This document shows positions 10,681 through 34,272 of a stretch of 34,273 bases of DNA, in pieces (position 1 is the stretch's first letter; every line of letters begins with the position of its first letter). Under the pieces are notes generated by a model. It saw only the letters and a program-made list of their open reading frames with translations. It did no database searches and was not told where the DNA came from. The DNA comes from a virus: positions 1 through 34,273 of IMG/VR virus record IMGVR_UViG_3300020187_000111; one strand, given 5' to 3'. A program made the position numbers and the translations under genes.

Positions 10681-12300
10681 TCATTCCAATGGCCCGTTGT
10701 GCTTAGTATTTGTGCGCTTTTTCGGTGAATCGGTCAACCGTTGTCCGGTACTATTCCGTGATTCCGTTGCAACCATGATCGAGCGCAAATCCTCCATCCC
10801 GACGTGCGCGTAACGGCTGGTGGTCCGAATATCGGTATGACCCAGGAGCTTGCCCGCGGCCTTGAGATTGCCGGTCGTGCGGATGATCCGGGTTGCGCTG
10901 GTGTGGCGCAGATCGTGGAACCGGAAATCGCTGACACCGGCATCGGCGAGCGCCTTATACCATTTGCGCGCCCATCCGCCCTTGGTGAACGGATACCGGG
11001 CACCCTTGAGACGGCGGGGTCGATCCTTGCGCGACGGGGCAGGGCGCTCGCAGACATAGGTGAACACGAACGGGCACCCGTCGACACGCGGTTGCTCGAG
11101 GAGCAGCTGCACCATCGCCGGTGACAGCGGGAAGCTGTGCAGGTTGCCGCCCTTGTTGACGATCGTCGCCTCGCCAGCACCCCAGTTGATCCGATCCCAT
11201 TCCAATCCGATCACAGCAGACTTGCGTTGCCCGCTCAGGATCGCAAACTCGACGATCGCGCGCAGGCTATCGGGCAGGGCCTCGAACAGCGCTTTTTCCT
11301 CGTCCGCCTTGAGCGCGCGGACGCGCTCTGCCGGTTCATCCAGCTTCAGCTTTCCCCATTGAATCGTGCTGACGGCATGCGTGTCGGCAACATGCCGCCA
11401 GACCCTGCGCGCCAGCTGCCACTCCCGGTTTATGCTGGCATGGGACACGCCTTCGCCGCGGCGCTTCGCAATGAAGGCGCGCCAGTCGGTCAACGTGATC
11501 GCGCTCAGCATGACGTTCTCGCCGATGATCCGGCAAAGGTTGGTAAGCTGATATTCAGTCGTGTAACCCGATGCCTCGTGCTGCCCCTTGTCGTTCCAAT
11601 AGGCCGCGCAGGCGTTGCCGAGCGTGACGCCGGGAAGGGTGCTGCTGCCAAGGGCTATCTCGCGGCGGAGGTTGTCGATGAAGGCTTGCGCATCGCGCTT
11701 CGTCTTGCATCCCGTTGAGCCATGAAACCGCTGTTTTTTGACCTGGAAATCGTACTGGAAGTACGGCGAGCGCGGGTCCGCCGGGACGTGATCGAACATC
11801 GCACGGCACCAGGTGCCATCGATCTCCGCCAGCGCGGCGAGTTCCGAGCGATCCGGATCGATTTCGATCCCGAACTCGGCGAGCCGGGCGCGGGCTATCT
11901 TGGCCATCGCCTCGACCTGGGCGACCTCGTCATCCTTGATCGGGGTTAGCCCGCGGTCGCGCGCATCGGCGATGAAGGCTTTTGCCGCGGACGTGCTGGC
12001 CGCGCCATTGGTCGCCAGCAGATCGGTCGGGATAGCGACATAATCGTCACCGCATCCGAGCACTGCCCGGTGCGCCGCGCGCCCGATATCGAAGGTCTTG
12101 CGGTTCAGCGATTCATAGTCGGGGTTCAGGCGGGGGCTCGCATGCCATGCATGGCGTGGCGATTTCGCCGTGATCAGCTTGGCGAGCGTAGCCGACAGGC
12201 TCGGCAGCGGTGCCGGGTCGCTGTGATATACGGCGCTCGGCAGCCGATGGACACCGGGACCGAGGTCGGCCTGCGCGATGTTGAAAGCGGGCGCATTCAT
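10681..12300 (-). CDS. Tyrosine integrase fused behind a truncated RecE-type nuclease
   Basis: The 539-residue frame has two unrelated parts. Residues 1 to about 178 are the N-terminal region of a phage RecE/YqaJ-like exonuclease: PSLSATLAKLI, DIGRAAHRAVLG and the metal-site start E159-x-D161-G...R166-x-M-x-D170. The D-x-K strand that should follow is missing. From about residue 180 (YFQYDFQVKKQRFHGSTG) it continues as an ordinary phage integrase, with AP2-like and SAM-like DNA-binding regions and the catalytic set R359, H462, R465, H488 and Y497. An integrase normally begins at about this QYDF strand, so a deletion has joined the two genes in frame. The nuclease part is expected to be dead; the recombinase part looks complete and would recombine the adjacent att site. 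Confidence 0.85.
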   Translation of the reverse strand: MNAPAFNIAQADLGPGVHRLPSAVYHSDPAPLPSLSATLAKLITAKSPRHAWHASPRLNPDYESLNRKTFDIGRAAHRAVLGCGDDYVAIPTDLLATNGAASTSAAKAFIADARDRGLTPIKDDEVAQVEAMAKIARARLAEFGIEIDPDRSELAALAEIDGTWCRAMFDHVPADPRSPYFQYDFQVKKQRFHGSTGCKTKRDAQAFIDNLRREIALGSSTLPGVTLGNACAAYWNDKGQHEASGYTTEYQLTNLCRIIGENVMLSAITLTDWRAFIAKRRGEGVSHASINREWQLARRVWRHVADTHAVSTIQWGKLKLDEPAERVRALKADEEKALFEALPDSLRAIVEFAILSGQRKSAVIGLEWDRINWGAGEATIVNKGGNLHSFPLSPAMVQLLLEQPRVDGCPFVFTYVCERPAPSRKDRPRRLKGARYPFTKGGWARKWYKALADAGVSDFRFHDLRHTSATRIIRTTGNLKAAGKLLGHTDIRTTSRYAHVGMEDLRSIMVATESRNSTGQRLTDSPKKRTNTKHNGPLE

Positions 12301-28999: not shown

Positions 29000-30940
29000 T
29001 CACGCTACCGGGAGCGCGCAATGGCTCATCCAGTTGTAGAGGGGGGTCGAACCATCGGCTGCTAGGTCGGCGCTGCTATCTCGGAAATTAGTTCGCGGGC
29101 CGCTCGTCGGACCCGCCTCATCGCCTCCCGCGCCGTACATTCCAGCTGACAACGTACCGGCGACTGCGCTGGCTAGCGTCGCGGTGATCGTGTTGCCCGA
29201 CACTGCGATTGAGCTGATCGCAACATTGGCCCCTGTGCCGTCTTTGTAGACAAGACCATATTGAGCAGCCGCGGCAACCCGCGTGGTATCAATTGCGAGT
29301 GCGCCAGCCGGGGGATTGCAGGTGATCATGAGAGCCGTCGCGCTTCGCACAGCAGAAACCATCCGCAGCGGCGTCCAGGTGCCGCCGGTCGCGATCACCC
29401 CCAGCGCGCGCCCGTGATAGTCCCCCAGCAGCCGATACCCTGCAGCGGTCAGGTGAGGGCCGTCCGCATAAGGCAGCATGTATTTCGGGCAGACGCAGAC
29501 AAACCGGACTGGATCATCGATCGACGCCTGAAGCTGCGCCAAGGTGACGGCCGACGTCGGGATGCCGCCGTAGATCGTCCACGATGATACCTGATCGGTG
29601 ACCAGCGGGACAATCGCAGTTGAATCACCCATGACCTGACGCGCGTCGGCCTGCCAGTCGCCCTGCCATTCCGTCAGGTGCCCGAGATAGGTCGCAAGCG
29701 AGTCGGCGTAGTTATTCTCGCCGTGGACGACATCAAGGGCAATCATCCGGTAATCGAGGCCAGCACCGCGGGATATCGCTGCGGCTCGGCGCATGGCGAA
29801 CAGCGCATTTCGGTACGGCTGCGTTCCCTTTTTCAGCGCCGAATAGAGTTGCCCGCCGACCCCGTGCGCAGACGCTATCACCGCGGTGTAGGGATCGACC
29901 GCGCCAAGCATCCGGTTGACCGCCTGAACCAGATGGACCTCGGTTCCGATCGAGCTCGGTCCTGCCAGATCGATGATCGAGGAAACATGGCGGTCCTCGA
30001 GCGCATAGGCTGTCGAGTTTTCGCCGGGAACGACTGAGCCGGTGAACATCAGGCCTCGACCGGGATTGAGCGCAGTCGTGCTGATCGGCGGGACACCAGA
30101 CTGGCCTATGCTGAGCGATTGTCCCTGCCCGGATATGTGCGCGATCGTCGCGATGTCATTTACGCCGGTGGCGACTGCGATTAGCGGATCGGTTGCAGCT
30201 TCGATAAGCGCGCCGATCGGACCGTCCTCGCCTACCGCGAACGGGGTGTAGCCGTCCTCGTCCAGCAATCCTTGCGGGACGTAAAGGATGCGCTTGCCAG
30301 TGCTGATCGGAAGCAGCGGGGCATCGCGCCCGATCGCCGCCGCTAGTGCGATGTCGCGCGCGGCTTCCGCGTCTGCCGCAGCAGATTCTGATCTCACAGT
30401 AAGCGGACCCAGCAGGTCTGCGCCATCGATCGAAACCGAGATTACGTCACCGTTCGAAACTGTGACGAGAGCAGAAGATACAGGTGAGATCGCTGGGGAT
30501 GTGCCGTAGCCGCTGCCACGATCAACTGGTGCCGCATCCGAATCCATAGCGCTGGCGAGAGCCCAGAAGTCACCGTAGAGTCTGGTCCTACCATCCCATT
30601 GGATCGCGAACGCTAGCTTACTGTTTTCACCTATTTCGCCGGTGTACGGGAACGCCTCGGCACTGGTCATAGTCGTCTTGTTGATCCGCATGATCAAAGT
30701 CGAGACCGGCAACCCATCGACCATCATAACGCTATCGAGCTTGATGCCCTCAGCCGCGGTCGTCGTCACTGTCGCTAGGTCGACTCGTGGCGCACCGGGT
30801 GTGTCAGGCAAGAGCCGGAATTGCGCCCGTATCGTTCCCGCCGACGCAGCCGCCGTCAGATCGACGCCGCGCACGGCGATCGTGAGCGTGAACAGTTCGT
30901 TTCGCCACGCCGCAATGGCGAGGCGTTGGGAGGATGCCAT
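29000..30940 (-). CDS. Tail fibre with SGNH/sialate-esterase-like domain (646 aa)
   Basis: The start at 30940 lies behind GGAGATAT. Residues 1-130 are a tail-adaptor domain homologous to the 15704-16090 protein. An alanine-rich helical linker (about 186-204, AAADAEAARDIALAAAIG) precedes an SGNH hydrolase. That domain shows GQGQSLSIGQSG with the nucleophile S275, ALDVVHGENN (about 401-410) and the catalytic D493-x-x-H496 in YADGPHLTAAGY. The last ~130 residues are a beta-rich C-terminal domain. Such esterases on fibres remove O-acetyl groups from capsule, LPS or exopolysaccharide during adsorption. The substrate here is unknown. Confidence 0.82.
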   Translation of the reverse strand: MASSQRLAIAAWRNELFTLTIAVRGVDLTAAASAGTIRAQFRLLPDTPGAPRVDLATVTTTAAEGIKLDSVMMVDGLPVSTLIMRINKTTMTSAEAFPYTGEIGENSKLAFAIQWDGRTRLYGDFWALASAMDSDAAPVDRGSGYGTSPAISPVSSALVTVSNGDVISVSIDGADLLGPLTVRSESAAADAEAARDIALAAAIGRDAPLLPISTGKRILYVPQGLLDEDGYTPFAVGEDGPIGALIEAATDPLIAVATGVNDIATIAHISGQGQSLSIGQSGVPPISTTALNPGRGLMFTGSVVPGENSTAYALEDRHVSSIIDLAGPSSIGTEVHLVQAVNRMLGAVDPYTAVIASAHGVGGQLYSALKKGTQPYRNALFAMRRAAAISRGAGLDYRMIALDVVHGENNYADSLATYLGHLTEWQGDWQADARQVMGDSTAIVPLVTDQVSSWTIYGGIPTSAVTLAQLQASIDDPVRFVCVCPKYMLPYADGPHLTAAGYRLLGDYHGRALGVIATGGTWTPLRMVSAVRSATALMITCNPPAGALAIDTTRVAAAAQYGLVYKDGTGANVAISSIAVSGNTITATLASAVAGTLSAGMYGAGGDEAGPTSGPRTNFRDSSADLAADGSTPLYNWMSHCALPVA

Positions 30941-30969: not shown

Positions 30970-33252
30970 TCAAGGAATAACGGTGTTCTGCTTGATGTTG
31001 TGCGACAGCACGCCGTTCGAGACGTAGGTGTGCGCCCCGGTAACGGTCATCTTCACGACCTGCTGCGTGCCAGCTATCTGCGTCGCGCCGGGCACGGCGC
31101 GCATTGCGATCCATGCGCCGGTGTAAACGAGGTGGTCGCCGGTAGCGGACAGCGGGCGCCCGCCAATCTCCGCGGACCAAACGTCCTCGCTATCGACGAT
31201 CATGAATGCCTCGACCGGGAAGAATCCCCACTCAAGCGTGACCTCGTGGCGGGTGTAGACCCGTTCGCCCACAGCCCATTCGCCAGCAGGCTTTTCGACG
31301 CCAGGCGCAGCAAGCAGCGGCGTGTCGATCGTAACGCAGTTGCCGCCTGGGGGGGATGCGCCGCCGCCGTCTGCAGGCGGGCTGCCCGCGGTGGGGATCG
31401 TTGCATATCCGACATAGTGGCGCCCCGGGTGGTCCGGAGACGCGCGCGCATCGAGATCGTCCACGAACAGCTGATTGGCCACGGCACCGCCGATTCGATC
31501 GAAATCATCATATCCGATCGCCCGAAAGTCGCCGGCCGCGAGCCCGCTCGAGATCGTGGCCCCGTCAACAGCTACGTCTGCGTGCCCATCGGTGTATCGG
31601 CGCGTGTGATCGCTGATCGTGATCGTGCCATCATCCGCCGCTGTGATCGTTAGGCCGATCGGGAAAGATGTCGCGATCGCCAATTGGATCGCGGACAGGT
31701 TATCTGCAGGATAGGCGGTCGGGATACTCAGGTCGGGCGTCCGCGGCGGGGTGCCGCTTTGGCCAAGCGCGAATGGATGTTTCCCTGGTGTCTCTGATCG
31801 GCAGGTCAGTGTGACGCCGAGCGATGCCGCGTCGATCTCCCGGGTCCGAACGACGACGTCCCGACCGAACAGGTTGGCCTCTGGCAGATCAGCGGTAAGG
31901 CAGTCTCCAGGTAGATAGCCCAGCGCGTAAATCTTGAGCGGCAGCACGATGCCGTCGAGCTCGCGATCGTCGAGCATCTGCAGGACCGATAGCTTCGCGC
32001 CGAGGTCCACGTCCTGTACCAGGGGCAGCACAATCTCTTTCGGGCGTGTTCCCGAGTCCTCTCCTACATATTCAGCGACGCTGATCGCATCGAGCGGCAC
32101 GACCTCCCACCCGTGGCTTTCCAACCTGACGCGGGGGATAACCGTATTACGCCGCGTGCGCATCGATGCCGTCGACGGAACATCAATATCTCCTGCAATG
32201 TCCTCCGAAGCGATCGTCCCGATCGAAACGCGCGGGGCCGAGAACGTGCACGACAGTAGCGCGCCGATTGGCATCACCTCGCCACCGCCTGCCTGCGCCA
32301 GCATCTTGAGGATGTCCCAGTCATTATCCGCAGTCGTGTAGACAAGGCCGCCAGCCTTCCACCCGACCAGGTCGGCGTAGTTGGCCGCCTCGATCCAGCG
32401 CGTCAGGTCGATTCCCGTGATTGGTAGCCCGCCCCCGGCCATTAGAGTCCTGTTCTGGACCGCCCCGAGCGCGAACCACAGTCCGAGCAGCCAAGGATTC
32501 TCCGTATACAGGTGCGTGGACGGGTCATCGGCGCGGCATGGCCCAGCGCCCCCAACAACCGTATCATCGAGCCGGGGATCCCACGCCAACACGCCCTCGA
32601 TGACACGCCCTCGCTGTGGCACGCCGTTGGGATAGGTCTTACCGTTCGTGTCGAACTTCAGCGTCCATAGATCTGCAGCGAGCCCCGATATCTTGCTGGT
32701 CGCATCCCACCCCGGGAACGGCCCCTGCGGGCCCGCCAGCGCGCGCGCCTCAGGGCAGGCACCAAGCTGCGTATCAAGCCACATGAAGCCGTTGTACGTG
32801 CCCGATGCCGCGCCGCCGATGAACGTCACCTCAGCTTTGTCTATCAGCAGTGGGCCGACCTGGTTGACCGGGCCCATGCTAAGCACTGTCACCCAGCTTT
32901 CGAGGCTGTTTTTCGTGCCGTAATATTGTCGGTGAACGACGTTGCCGCCGACGTAAGTGCGCCCGAATACGATTGGGATGCCTGCATCTTTGTCGATCTT
33001 GAACGCCGACGGATTGCCGCCAACTGAGCCTTTTGGACTACCGCCTCCGACGGTCGCTGCAGCGAGCGACAAGACCCCGGCAGCAACGCTGGCAATCGTT
33101 GCCACCGTCGCGATACTAGCGAGTGCGGCCGCCGTTGCACTCCCGGCTACAACCGCACCGAAAAGACCGACACCGGCCGCGGCGCCGACGCCGCTGGCGA
33201 CCAATGCCACTGCGCCAACAACGAACGCGGCGGTTCTCAAGGCCTTCGCCAT
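30970..33252 (-). CDS. Tail-tip protein (J-like) with C-terminal Hint (intein-type) domain
   Basis: The 760-residue protein begins with a glycine/alanine-rich hydrophobic stretch (about 1-70) and continues as a tail-tip protein of the J/GTA type: GIPIVFGRTYVGGNVVHRQYY, GFMWLDTQLGACPEAR, DWDILKMLAQAGGGEVMPIG and many beta strands. After a Gly/Pro linker (SPPADGGGASPPGGN) the last 122 residues are a Hint domain. It has C639-V-T-I-D-T-P, the T704-G-D-H707 block, HTYVSNGVLSHN with H741, H751 and N752, and only eight residues (IKQNTVIP) after N752. All residues needed for intein-type N-terminal thioester formation and Asn cyclisation are visible. The following residue is isoleucine, so ligation is unlikely but cleavage is possible. 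Confidence 0.85.
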   Translation of the reverse strand: MAKALRTAAFVVGAVALVASGVGAAAGVGLFGAVVAGSATAAALASIATVATIASVAAGVLSLAAATVGGGSPKGSVGGNPSAFKIDKDAGIPIVFGRTYVGGNVVHRQYYGTKNSLESWVTVLSMGPVNQVGPLLIDKAEVTFIGGAASGTYNGFMWLDTQLGACPEARALAGPQGPFPGWDATSKISGLAADLWTLKFDTNGKTYPNGVPQRGRVIEGVLAWDPRLDDTVVGGAGPCRADDPSTHLYTENPWLLGLWFALGAVQNRTLMAGGGLPITGIDLTRWIEAANYADLVGWKAGGLVYTTADNDWDILKMLAQAGGGEVMPIGALLSCTFSAPRVSIGTIASEDIAGDIDVPSTASMRTRRNTVIPRVRLESHGWEVVPLDAISVAEYVGEDSGTRPKEIVLPLVQDVDLGAKLSVLQMLDDRELDGIVLPLKIYALGYLPGDCLTADLPEANLFGRDVVVRTREIDAASLGVTLTCRSETPGKHPFALGQSGTPPRTPDLSIPTAYPADNLSAIQLAIATSFPIGLTITAADDGTITISDHTRRYTDGHADVAVDGATISSGLAAGDFRAIGYDDFDRIGGAVANQLFVDDLDARASPDHPGRHYVGYATIPTAGSPPADGGGASPPGGNCVTIDTPLLAAPGVEKPAGEWAVGERVYTRHEVTLEWGFFPVEAFMIVDSEDVWSAEIGGRPLSATGDHLVYTGAWIAMRAVPGATQIAGTQQVVKMTVTGAHTYVSNGVLSHNIKQNTVIP

Positions 33253-33598: not shown

Positions 33599-34018
33599 CT
33601 ACAGCCGCCAAGCTGCGACATATTCGACTGGCTGCAGAATATCGGCGCCCGATAGATCTTCGTGATACCCCAGCACCCGTCCGTTCCCCACAGCCATCGT
33701 CAGTGACCCGCCGAACACGTCTTCGCCCGGCAGCATGATAAGGTCCGCGGGCAGCGCCGCCGCGGGCGCGATCCGCGCTAGTCCAATGCTGTCGATTGCC
33801 GCGACTAGGCTATCAAACCCCAGTTTGTGGAGCGCCCGGCCCGCGCCGCCCGCGGTCCGATACCGCATCGCGCGAACCAGCGGCGAGCGATGGCCCATCC
33901 GGTAAAGAACGAACGTTCCCAACCGCGCGCAGTCTGCGGTCCCGAATGCCAGCGGCACGCCGCGGAAGCGCGCGATCGCATCAGTGGCGACTTGGCGCCG
34001 CCGCACTGCTTCGATCAC
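33599..34018 (-). CDS. Phage tail peptidase, NlpC/P60-like (DUF6950 type)
   Basis: The GTG at 34018 forms a GTGA overlap with the preceding gene and gives 139 residues: VIEAVRRRQVATDAIARFRG, then PLAFGTADCARLGTFVLY with the catalytic cysteine C30. IAPAAALPADLIMLPG and GYHEDL carry the histidine region further on. This is the small tail-associated cysteine peptidase that precedes the tail-tip gene in siphoviruses and GTAs and cuts peptidoglycan crosslinks during DNA entry. The stop lies four bases after the moron stop on the other strand. Confidence 0.78.
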   Translation of the reverse strand: MIEAVRRRQVATDAIARFRGVPLAFGTADCARLGTFVLYRMGHRSPLVRAMRYRTAGGAGRALHKLGFDSLVAAIDSIGLARIAPAAALPADLIMLPGEDVFGGSLTMAVGNGRVLGYHEDLSGADILQPVEYVAAWRL

Positions 34019-34272
34019 TGTCTCACCGTCAGGGCGAAGAGCGCTGAGCTTGTTCCGCCGCTGCCGTAGGTTATCCCCGAGGGTGGCTTCTCGACGCCCC
34101 AATACGAAGTCTTTTCGATCCCGCTCATATTGGCGAGGCCAGTCTCCCCGGGCCACACCATCCGGTGCCAGGCATCCGATAGTCGCGCGCCCCGTTCAGT
34201 GTCGTGGAAACGCTCAAGCGCGGAGACGCATCGCCATTCGACCGATCTGCTGCCCTTGCCGACGCGAAGGCG
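34015..34272 (-). CDS. Phage tail protein, C-terminal part (85 residues visible)
   Basis: The frame enters from the right edge and ends at 34015 with a stop overlapping the peptidase GTG. Visible are SVEWRCVSALERFHDTERGA, LSDAWHRMVWPGETGLANMS and YWGVEKPPSGITYG. By position it should be the distal-tail or hub protein that normally precedes the tail peptidase. The N-terminus lies outside the window, and the family cannot be settled from this piece. Confidence 0.65.
   Translation of the reverse strand, partial: RLRVGKGSRSVEWRCVSALERFHDTERGARLSDAWHRMVWPGETGLANMSGIEKTSYWGVEKPPSGITYGSGGTSSALFALTVRQ

Follow-up and report, generated by a model that had tools for sequence, protein, structure and literature searches.

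A viral contig of 34,273 bases, which is the window analysed here, carries on its minus strand, from 33252 down to 30970, an ORF for a J-like tail-tip protein of 760 aa. The identical protein is encoded on a second contig, IMGVR_UViG_3300020185_003923. The question raised by this locus is whether the tip protein ends in a Hint (intein-like) domain, and what such a domain does at the end of a phage tail. A preliminary description of the DNA had named the residues that speak for a Hint domain, i.e., C639, T704-G-D-H707, H741 and H751-N752, behind a linker GGGASPPGGN and followed by eight residues. All of these are present, and the label J-like, given at the same time, agrees well with a profile match of residues 17-552 to the PHROG 5616 tail fiber (E 3e-56). 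The features of the locus are collected in Table 1.

Table 1. Features of the tail-tip locus, with positions in the window.
Feature	Position	Strand	Basis
J-like tail-tip protein with C-terminal Hint, 760 aa	30970..33252	-	ORF; PHROG 5616, E 3e-56
J-like body, residues 17-552, common to Hint-less relatives	31597..33204	-	PHROG 5616; MT835566
'HTRRYTDG' stalk domain, residues ~540-625	31378..31635	-	also in Hint-less phage proteins
Gly/Pro linker, residues 626-638, ending GGGASPPGGN	31339..31377	-	sequence; linker type recurs in relatives
Hint domain, residues 639-752, Cys1 to HN	30997..31338	-	profile to PDB, fold, TIGR01443
Cys639, predicted N-to-S acyl-shift nucleophile	31336..31338	-	Cys in 82/82 viral relatives
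Block B, T704-G-D-H707	31132..31143	-	[TS]xxH in 80/82
Block F His741, within GAHTYVSNG	31030..31032	-	16/19 in unbiased sample
His751-Asn752, predicted C-terminal cleavage dyad	30997..31002	-	HN in 82/82
Lys754, +2 after Asn	30991..30993	-	Lys at +1/+2: 81/81 viral, 12/19 bacterial control Hints
Short C-terminal tail IKQNTVIP, mini C-extein	30973..30996	-	corresponding tail kept in Hint-less L260
Tail fiber protein, next gene downstream	29003..30940	-	PHROG 4201, E 3e-79
Upstream neighbour	33602-34156		PHROG 2134, of unknown function

Because its neighbours are the PHROG 2134 match and the tail fiber protein, we place the tip gene within a tail-tip cluster. Its body is 62.5% identical to that of MT835566, which has no Hint domain. 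The stalk domain that follows the body yields an AlphaFold2 model with a pLDDT of 92.5, for which the PDB holds no match at E<=0.001. This domain is common to tip proteins and to small phage proteins of ~200 aa (L020-L038). A Gly/Pro linker similar to that of the window occurs in relatives either before the Hint domain or before the C-terminus. Elsewhere in the window, an ORF at 10684-12300 on the minus strand matches exonuclease VIII (PHROG 412) in its first part and integrase (PHROG 1) in its second.

Searched as a single sequence, the tip protein gives no Pfam match for the Hint domain, because one sequence alone is too divergent; a single-sequence search of the PDB and a PF13403 search of the viral record were uninformative as well. 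A profile built from 14 relatives, when compared to the PDB, finds the DnaB inteins of Ssp (1mi8, E 4e-9) and Npu (4o1r, 1e-8), Tetrahymena BIL2 (7e-8) and the C. thermocellum BIL (2lwy, 3e-6). Scanned alone, the domain also scores 18.5 bits against the NCBIfam model of the intein C-terminal region (TIGR01443), where the cut-off is 15.6. The AlphaFold2 model of the domain, computed from 39 sequences, reaches a pLDDT of 90.9 and a pTM of 0.83. It has 35 PDB matches at E<=0.001, and among the matches listed all are inteins, BIL, Vint or Hedgehog. Foldseek ranks BIL2 (TM 0.80), the Ssp DnaB intein (0.77) and BIL 2lwy (0.77) at the top, with Hedgehog 1at0 (0.61) lower. The last 122 residues of the tip protein contain a true Hint domain, above chance, as had been proposed from the letters of the DNA.

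Among the known Hint families, the A-type BIL is the one whose features the domain shows: Cys1 together with TxxH, a C-terminal HN, and a residue at +1, Ile753, that is not a nucleophile. From these residues a self-processing activity is predicted. A-type BIL domains, which reportedly go back to Amitai in 2003 and Dassa in 2004 (reviewed in PMC4031507), share with it the Hint fold and also lie in a variable stretch, similar to a linker, of a protein that is exposed at the surface. They differ in their carriers, which here are phage tail components, and in the C-terminal flank, which here usually comprises just 4-14 residues. For BILs, reviews describe a range of bacterial carrier proteins, with the domain in variable regions (PMC5874633). 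A canonical (class 1) intein does not fit, since Ile753 takes the place of Cys, Ser or Thr at +1. The Ssp DnaB mini-intein shares the fold, the active-site blocks and the existence of an in-frame empty allele at its site, whereas the tail Hint lacks an endonuclease and lies near the C-terminus, outside any conserved catalytic site. The Hog domain of Hedgehog is likewise a C-terminal Hint with Cys1 behind a secreted or surface domain. In contrast to Hog, the tail Hint keeps HN, and the eight residues after it leave no room for a sterol-recognition region. A pretoxin HINT (PF07591) was considered too, as some marine-phage relatives score above the PT-HINT cut-off (L099, 34.7 bits); the window domain itself has no Pfam match, and neither its eight trailing residues nor the tail-tip group as a whole offer a downstream toxin domain.

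The active-site residues do not vary freely among relatives. In 82 viral Hint domains, whose loci were chosen with the block-F pattern, Cys1 and HN are found in all and [TS]xxH in 80, and a Lys stands at +1 or +2 after HN in each of the 81 domains with a readable tail. The +1 residue is Thr in 2 of these 81 and never Cys or Ser. Collapsing the set to 47 clusters at 80% identity leaves the picture of Cys1, [TS]xxH, HN and Lys unchanged. As the loci had been picked by block F, conservation was retested in sets that had been gathered independently of the Hint sequence. The tubular-protein set, retrieved by the upstream part of the tail protein only, has 19 Hint-bearing loci, and these carry Cys1, [TS]xxH, HN and Lys without exception; the block-F His is present in just 16 of them and hence is not invariant. 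Likewise, a search with the J body alone gave 15 complete tip proteins with a Hint, all of which have HN and Lys. Relatives reach down to 31% identity with the window domain, and dN/dS inside the Hint domain ranges from 0.05 to 0.54 (17 pairs). In case of L040 and L041, the Hint domains are 89% identical and the preceding 450 residues 50%, which points either to modular exchange or to a body that changes fast.

The Lys after HN is not a phage invention. It stands at +1 or +2 in 12 of 19 bacterial non-phage control Hints and is therefore a wider feature of such domains; several of the bacterial controls (L127-L169) end exactly in HNK at their C-terminus. Beyond the Lys, the tails diverge fast: L045 and L047 have Hints of 94% identity and different tails. 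This divergence argues against a precise role of the ligated tail.

The Hint domain is an optional module and not an essential part of the tail. Close relatives of the J-like protein carry it in 16 out of 32 cases and lack it in the other 16, and 46 of 65 tubular proteins have none. Hint-less relatives being about as common as Hint-bearing ones, its chemistry is not required for infection by such tails. The earlier suggestions that the tip is activated on adsorption, or attached covalently to a host-surface amine, find no support in these counts, and nothing was found in favour of host-surface conjugation.

The most informative Hint-less allele is the tip gene L260, a near match to the Hint-bearing L255, L258, L259 and L265. 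L255 and L265 read PPGGQ-[C...HN]-IKMNQPEQPSQV, and the ends of L258 and L259 are D and A. L260 reads PPGGQ-YN-KMNQPEQPSQV followed by the stop, and thus keeps both the Gly/Pro linker and the short tail in frame. Its flanking DNA is 82-91% identical to that of the Hint-bearing relatives upstream and 81-83% downstream, over 600-860 bases. Right of the junction, L259 and L260 are nearly identical over some 100 bases; they differ by a net 348 bases, i.e., 116 codons in frame. This is the precise in-frame insertion with a Hint-less allele that is expected of an intein, apart from a difference at the junction, of two residues (YN) against one (I). L260 accordingly looks nearly like a spliced form: a chain spliced to PPGGQ-IKMNQPEQPSQV would have I where the natural Hint-less protein has YN, and, whether or not ligation follows, what excision leaves behind would resemble the naturally Hint-less protein. 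Since L260 keeps the tail, the residues after the Hint belong to the host protein. The preliminary description had seen no real C-extein in them; the stretch is indeed short, but it is not a meaningless stub. A single empty allele such as L260 is compatible with gain as well as with loss of the Hint.

Taken together, we favour the reading that the Hint is an optional, in-frame, A-type-BIL-like element between the linker and the last residues, which excises itself by splicing or by cleavage at both ends; we put its probability at about 0.68. Cys639 would take over the preceding peptide bond to form a thioester, and Asn752, with the help of His751, would cyclise and set the tail free. On the splicing route the amine of the freed tail would then attack the thioester; alternatively, both ends would simply be cut. 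The Hint would in this way be removed from the tip protein during synthesis or assembly. All residues for the two half-reactions, Cys1/TxxH and His-Asn, are present in the window domain. A point against splicing is that, with +1 not being Cys, Ser or Thr, it could proceed only via the less efficient amine route. A-type BILs have HN and no +1 nucleophile, form a thioester at Cys1, cyclise Asn, and either splice or cleave (PMC4031507, PMC5874633). In type A BILs the freed amine may ligate, yet cleavage products dominate (PMC4031507). We infer the reactivity of the tail Hint, the timing of its removal and the balance between splicing and cleavage. In the Sphingomonas desiccabilis CP1D prophage L118, linker-IKMNTPEMPNQA would be the span expected in the J-like protein from splicing.

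A different use of the same active site is that the thioester serves N-terminal cleavage or conjugation only: the chain would be cut at C639 and then either undergo hydrolysis or be linked to an amine, provided by a neighbouring subunit or a small molecule, while Asn cyclisation merely discards the tail. The invariant Cys1 and nearly invariant TxxH, the short and variable tails beyond the Lys, and BIL2 of the Tetrahymena BUBL locus as nearest fold match speak for it. We nevertheless regard it as unlikely, as Hedgehog-type chemistry does not need the HN and the following residue that every relative keeps, no partner gene is conserved across architectures, and Hint-less relatives are common. Conjugation could also take the form that the thioester is attacked by the nearly universal Lys that follows His-Asn, or else by an amine from an adjacent tail subunit, so that the tip is left with an isopeptide-linked or cross-linked end. 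This is a rather improbable variant; if true, it would give phage tails an enzyme-free covalent step of assembly or display.

It is also improbable, and a little more so, that the Hint does not react at all and serves as a structural or binding tip, with its old active site retained. The distal C-terminus of a receptor-recognition protein would be a suitable place for such a tip. However, an invariant Cys1 and HN and a near-invariant TxxH down to the most distant relatives are hard to explain without catalysis, and one stop codon could remove a useless C-terminal domain.

The ease of such removal bears equally on the notion of a degenerate mini-intein, i.e., a selfish insert that stays active only because an inactive copy harms the tail, and from which the phage gains nothing. 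A polymorphic presence, with an empty site, and the optional occurrence in several tail families would suit it. Against this, inteins occupy conserved core sites and carry C/S/T at +1, the 114-residue domain holds no homing endonuclease, and eight residues from the end a nonsense mutation would delete it. We give this notion very little weight; it differs from the self-excising optional module in benefit and shares its chemistry.

Finally, the tubular proteins seemed to suggest a Hint that works in trans. In ten PHROG 376 loci two genes follow each other closely (gap -4, -1 or +3), with the Hint closing the first, and this pair corresponds to one gene, tail tubular protein B, in phages such as HTVC035P and MZH0603, with a seamless junction, much like a split intein. 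The product of the second gene would then use its N-terminus to attack the thioester on the upstream protein. A census of 65 complete loci (among L175-L246), scanned by the upstream part alone, counts 43 that are split without a Hint, 19 split with a Hint and 3 unsplit; the split therefore neither needs nor marks the Hint, and as the gene after the tip protein follows a spacing of its own and lacks a conserved N-terminus, ligation of a fractured tail protein is the least credible of the explanations. The split (e.g., L060, L075, L189) lies at the FCCH/nozzle junction, and the first piece ends in a Pro-rich, Gly-rich linker.

How far does the module extend beyond the window? Among annotated phages, MT835519 is the sole record in which a tail protein bears a domain clearly related to that of the window. 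A block-F pattern scan of uncultivated viruses revealed 151 relatives; the 80 best loci among them were retained. Three prophage copies of the Hint were located in Sphingomonas and Stakelama genomes. Strong matches occur in 3 out of 301 sampled genomes of the family to which the S. desiccabilis genome (G001) belongs, as expected for a phage-borne element. A 72 kb contig, IMGVR_UViG_3300048851_000184, has two Hint-bearing tip genes (L046 and L048) separated by about 45 kb, which may belong to two related prophages arranged in tandem.

The carriers are diverse. Besides J-like tip proteins (PHROG 5616, 31 and 1101), they comprise a complete gpI-like protein (PHROG 32 match, 4-198 of 203), the N-terminal part of the PHROG 376 tail protein and a PHROG 863 fiber, and in marine-phage proteins without a PHROG match the Hint is internal. 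A C-terminal Hint on complete gpI-like proteins, encoded beside a J-like gene, was observed in L066, L069, L071, L072, L074 and L079, and likewise in L083, L085, L087, L096 and L101. Internal Hints followed by long C-terminal regions are seen in viral structural-like proteins (L094, L099, L100, L103-L110, L116), several of which share a GPGDGVSDSIPATIGGKQPARLA-type C-terminal segment. A dedicated partner gene was sought in the neighbourhoods of the Hint-bearing genes; what these neighbourhoods have in common, architecture by architecture, does not go beyond the usual tail genes. The tail tip of lambda contains gpI together with gpJ in three copies each (PMC11101478). Homologues of both carry a fused Hint, whereas the lambda proteins, as represented by PHROG profiles, have none.

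From a biological point of view, A-type-BIL-like domains are optional and probably self-excising modules of phage tail proteins. If this is true, protein-splicing chemistry is built into at least three unrelated structural proteins of phage tails (tip J, gpI and tubular protein B), and splicing extends beyond the DNA enzymes and terminases in which phage inteins are usually annotated. The phage inteins found in the open literature searched reside in terminase, helicase or reductase genes only, and this literature, with most subscription journals and the original BIL papers outside it, gave no report of Hint or intein-like domains in phage tails. The tip gene with and without the Hint forms a natural pair of alleles for probing the role of a BIL in its host protein, a question as old as the description of BILs. 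A possible yield are small tags that cleave themselves and differ in what they require at the C-terminus, namely a Lys directly behind the Asn.

A minor observation concerns the very end of these proteins. Hint-less relatives close with a Gly-rich linker and a short peptide that often ends in IP, such as RYNQNEAIP in L253. In the tubular protein, the first piece often ends in NEQIP, DERIP or ELIP, and the tail of the window protein ends likewise. Ile-Pro ends are thus found in unrelated tail proteins with or without a Hint (L253, L256, L193, L199, L217, L218 and window 30973-30996), and the Gly-rich linker with its Ile-Pro end is a possible shared docking end.
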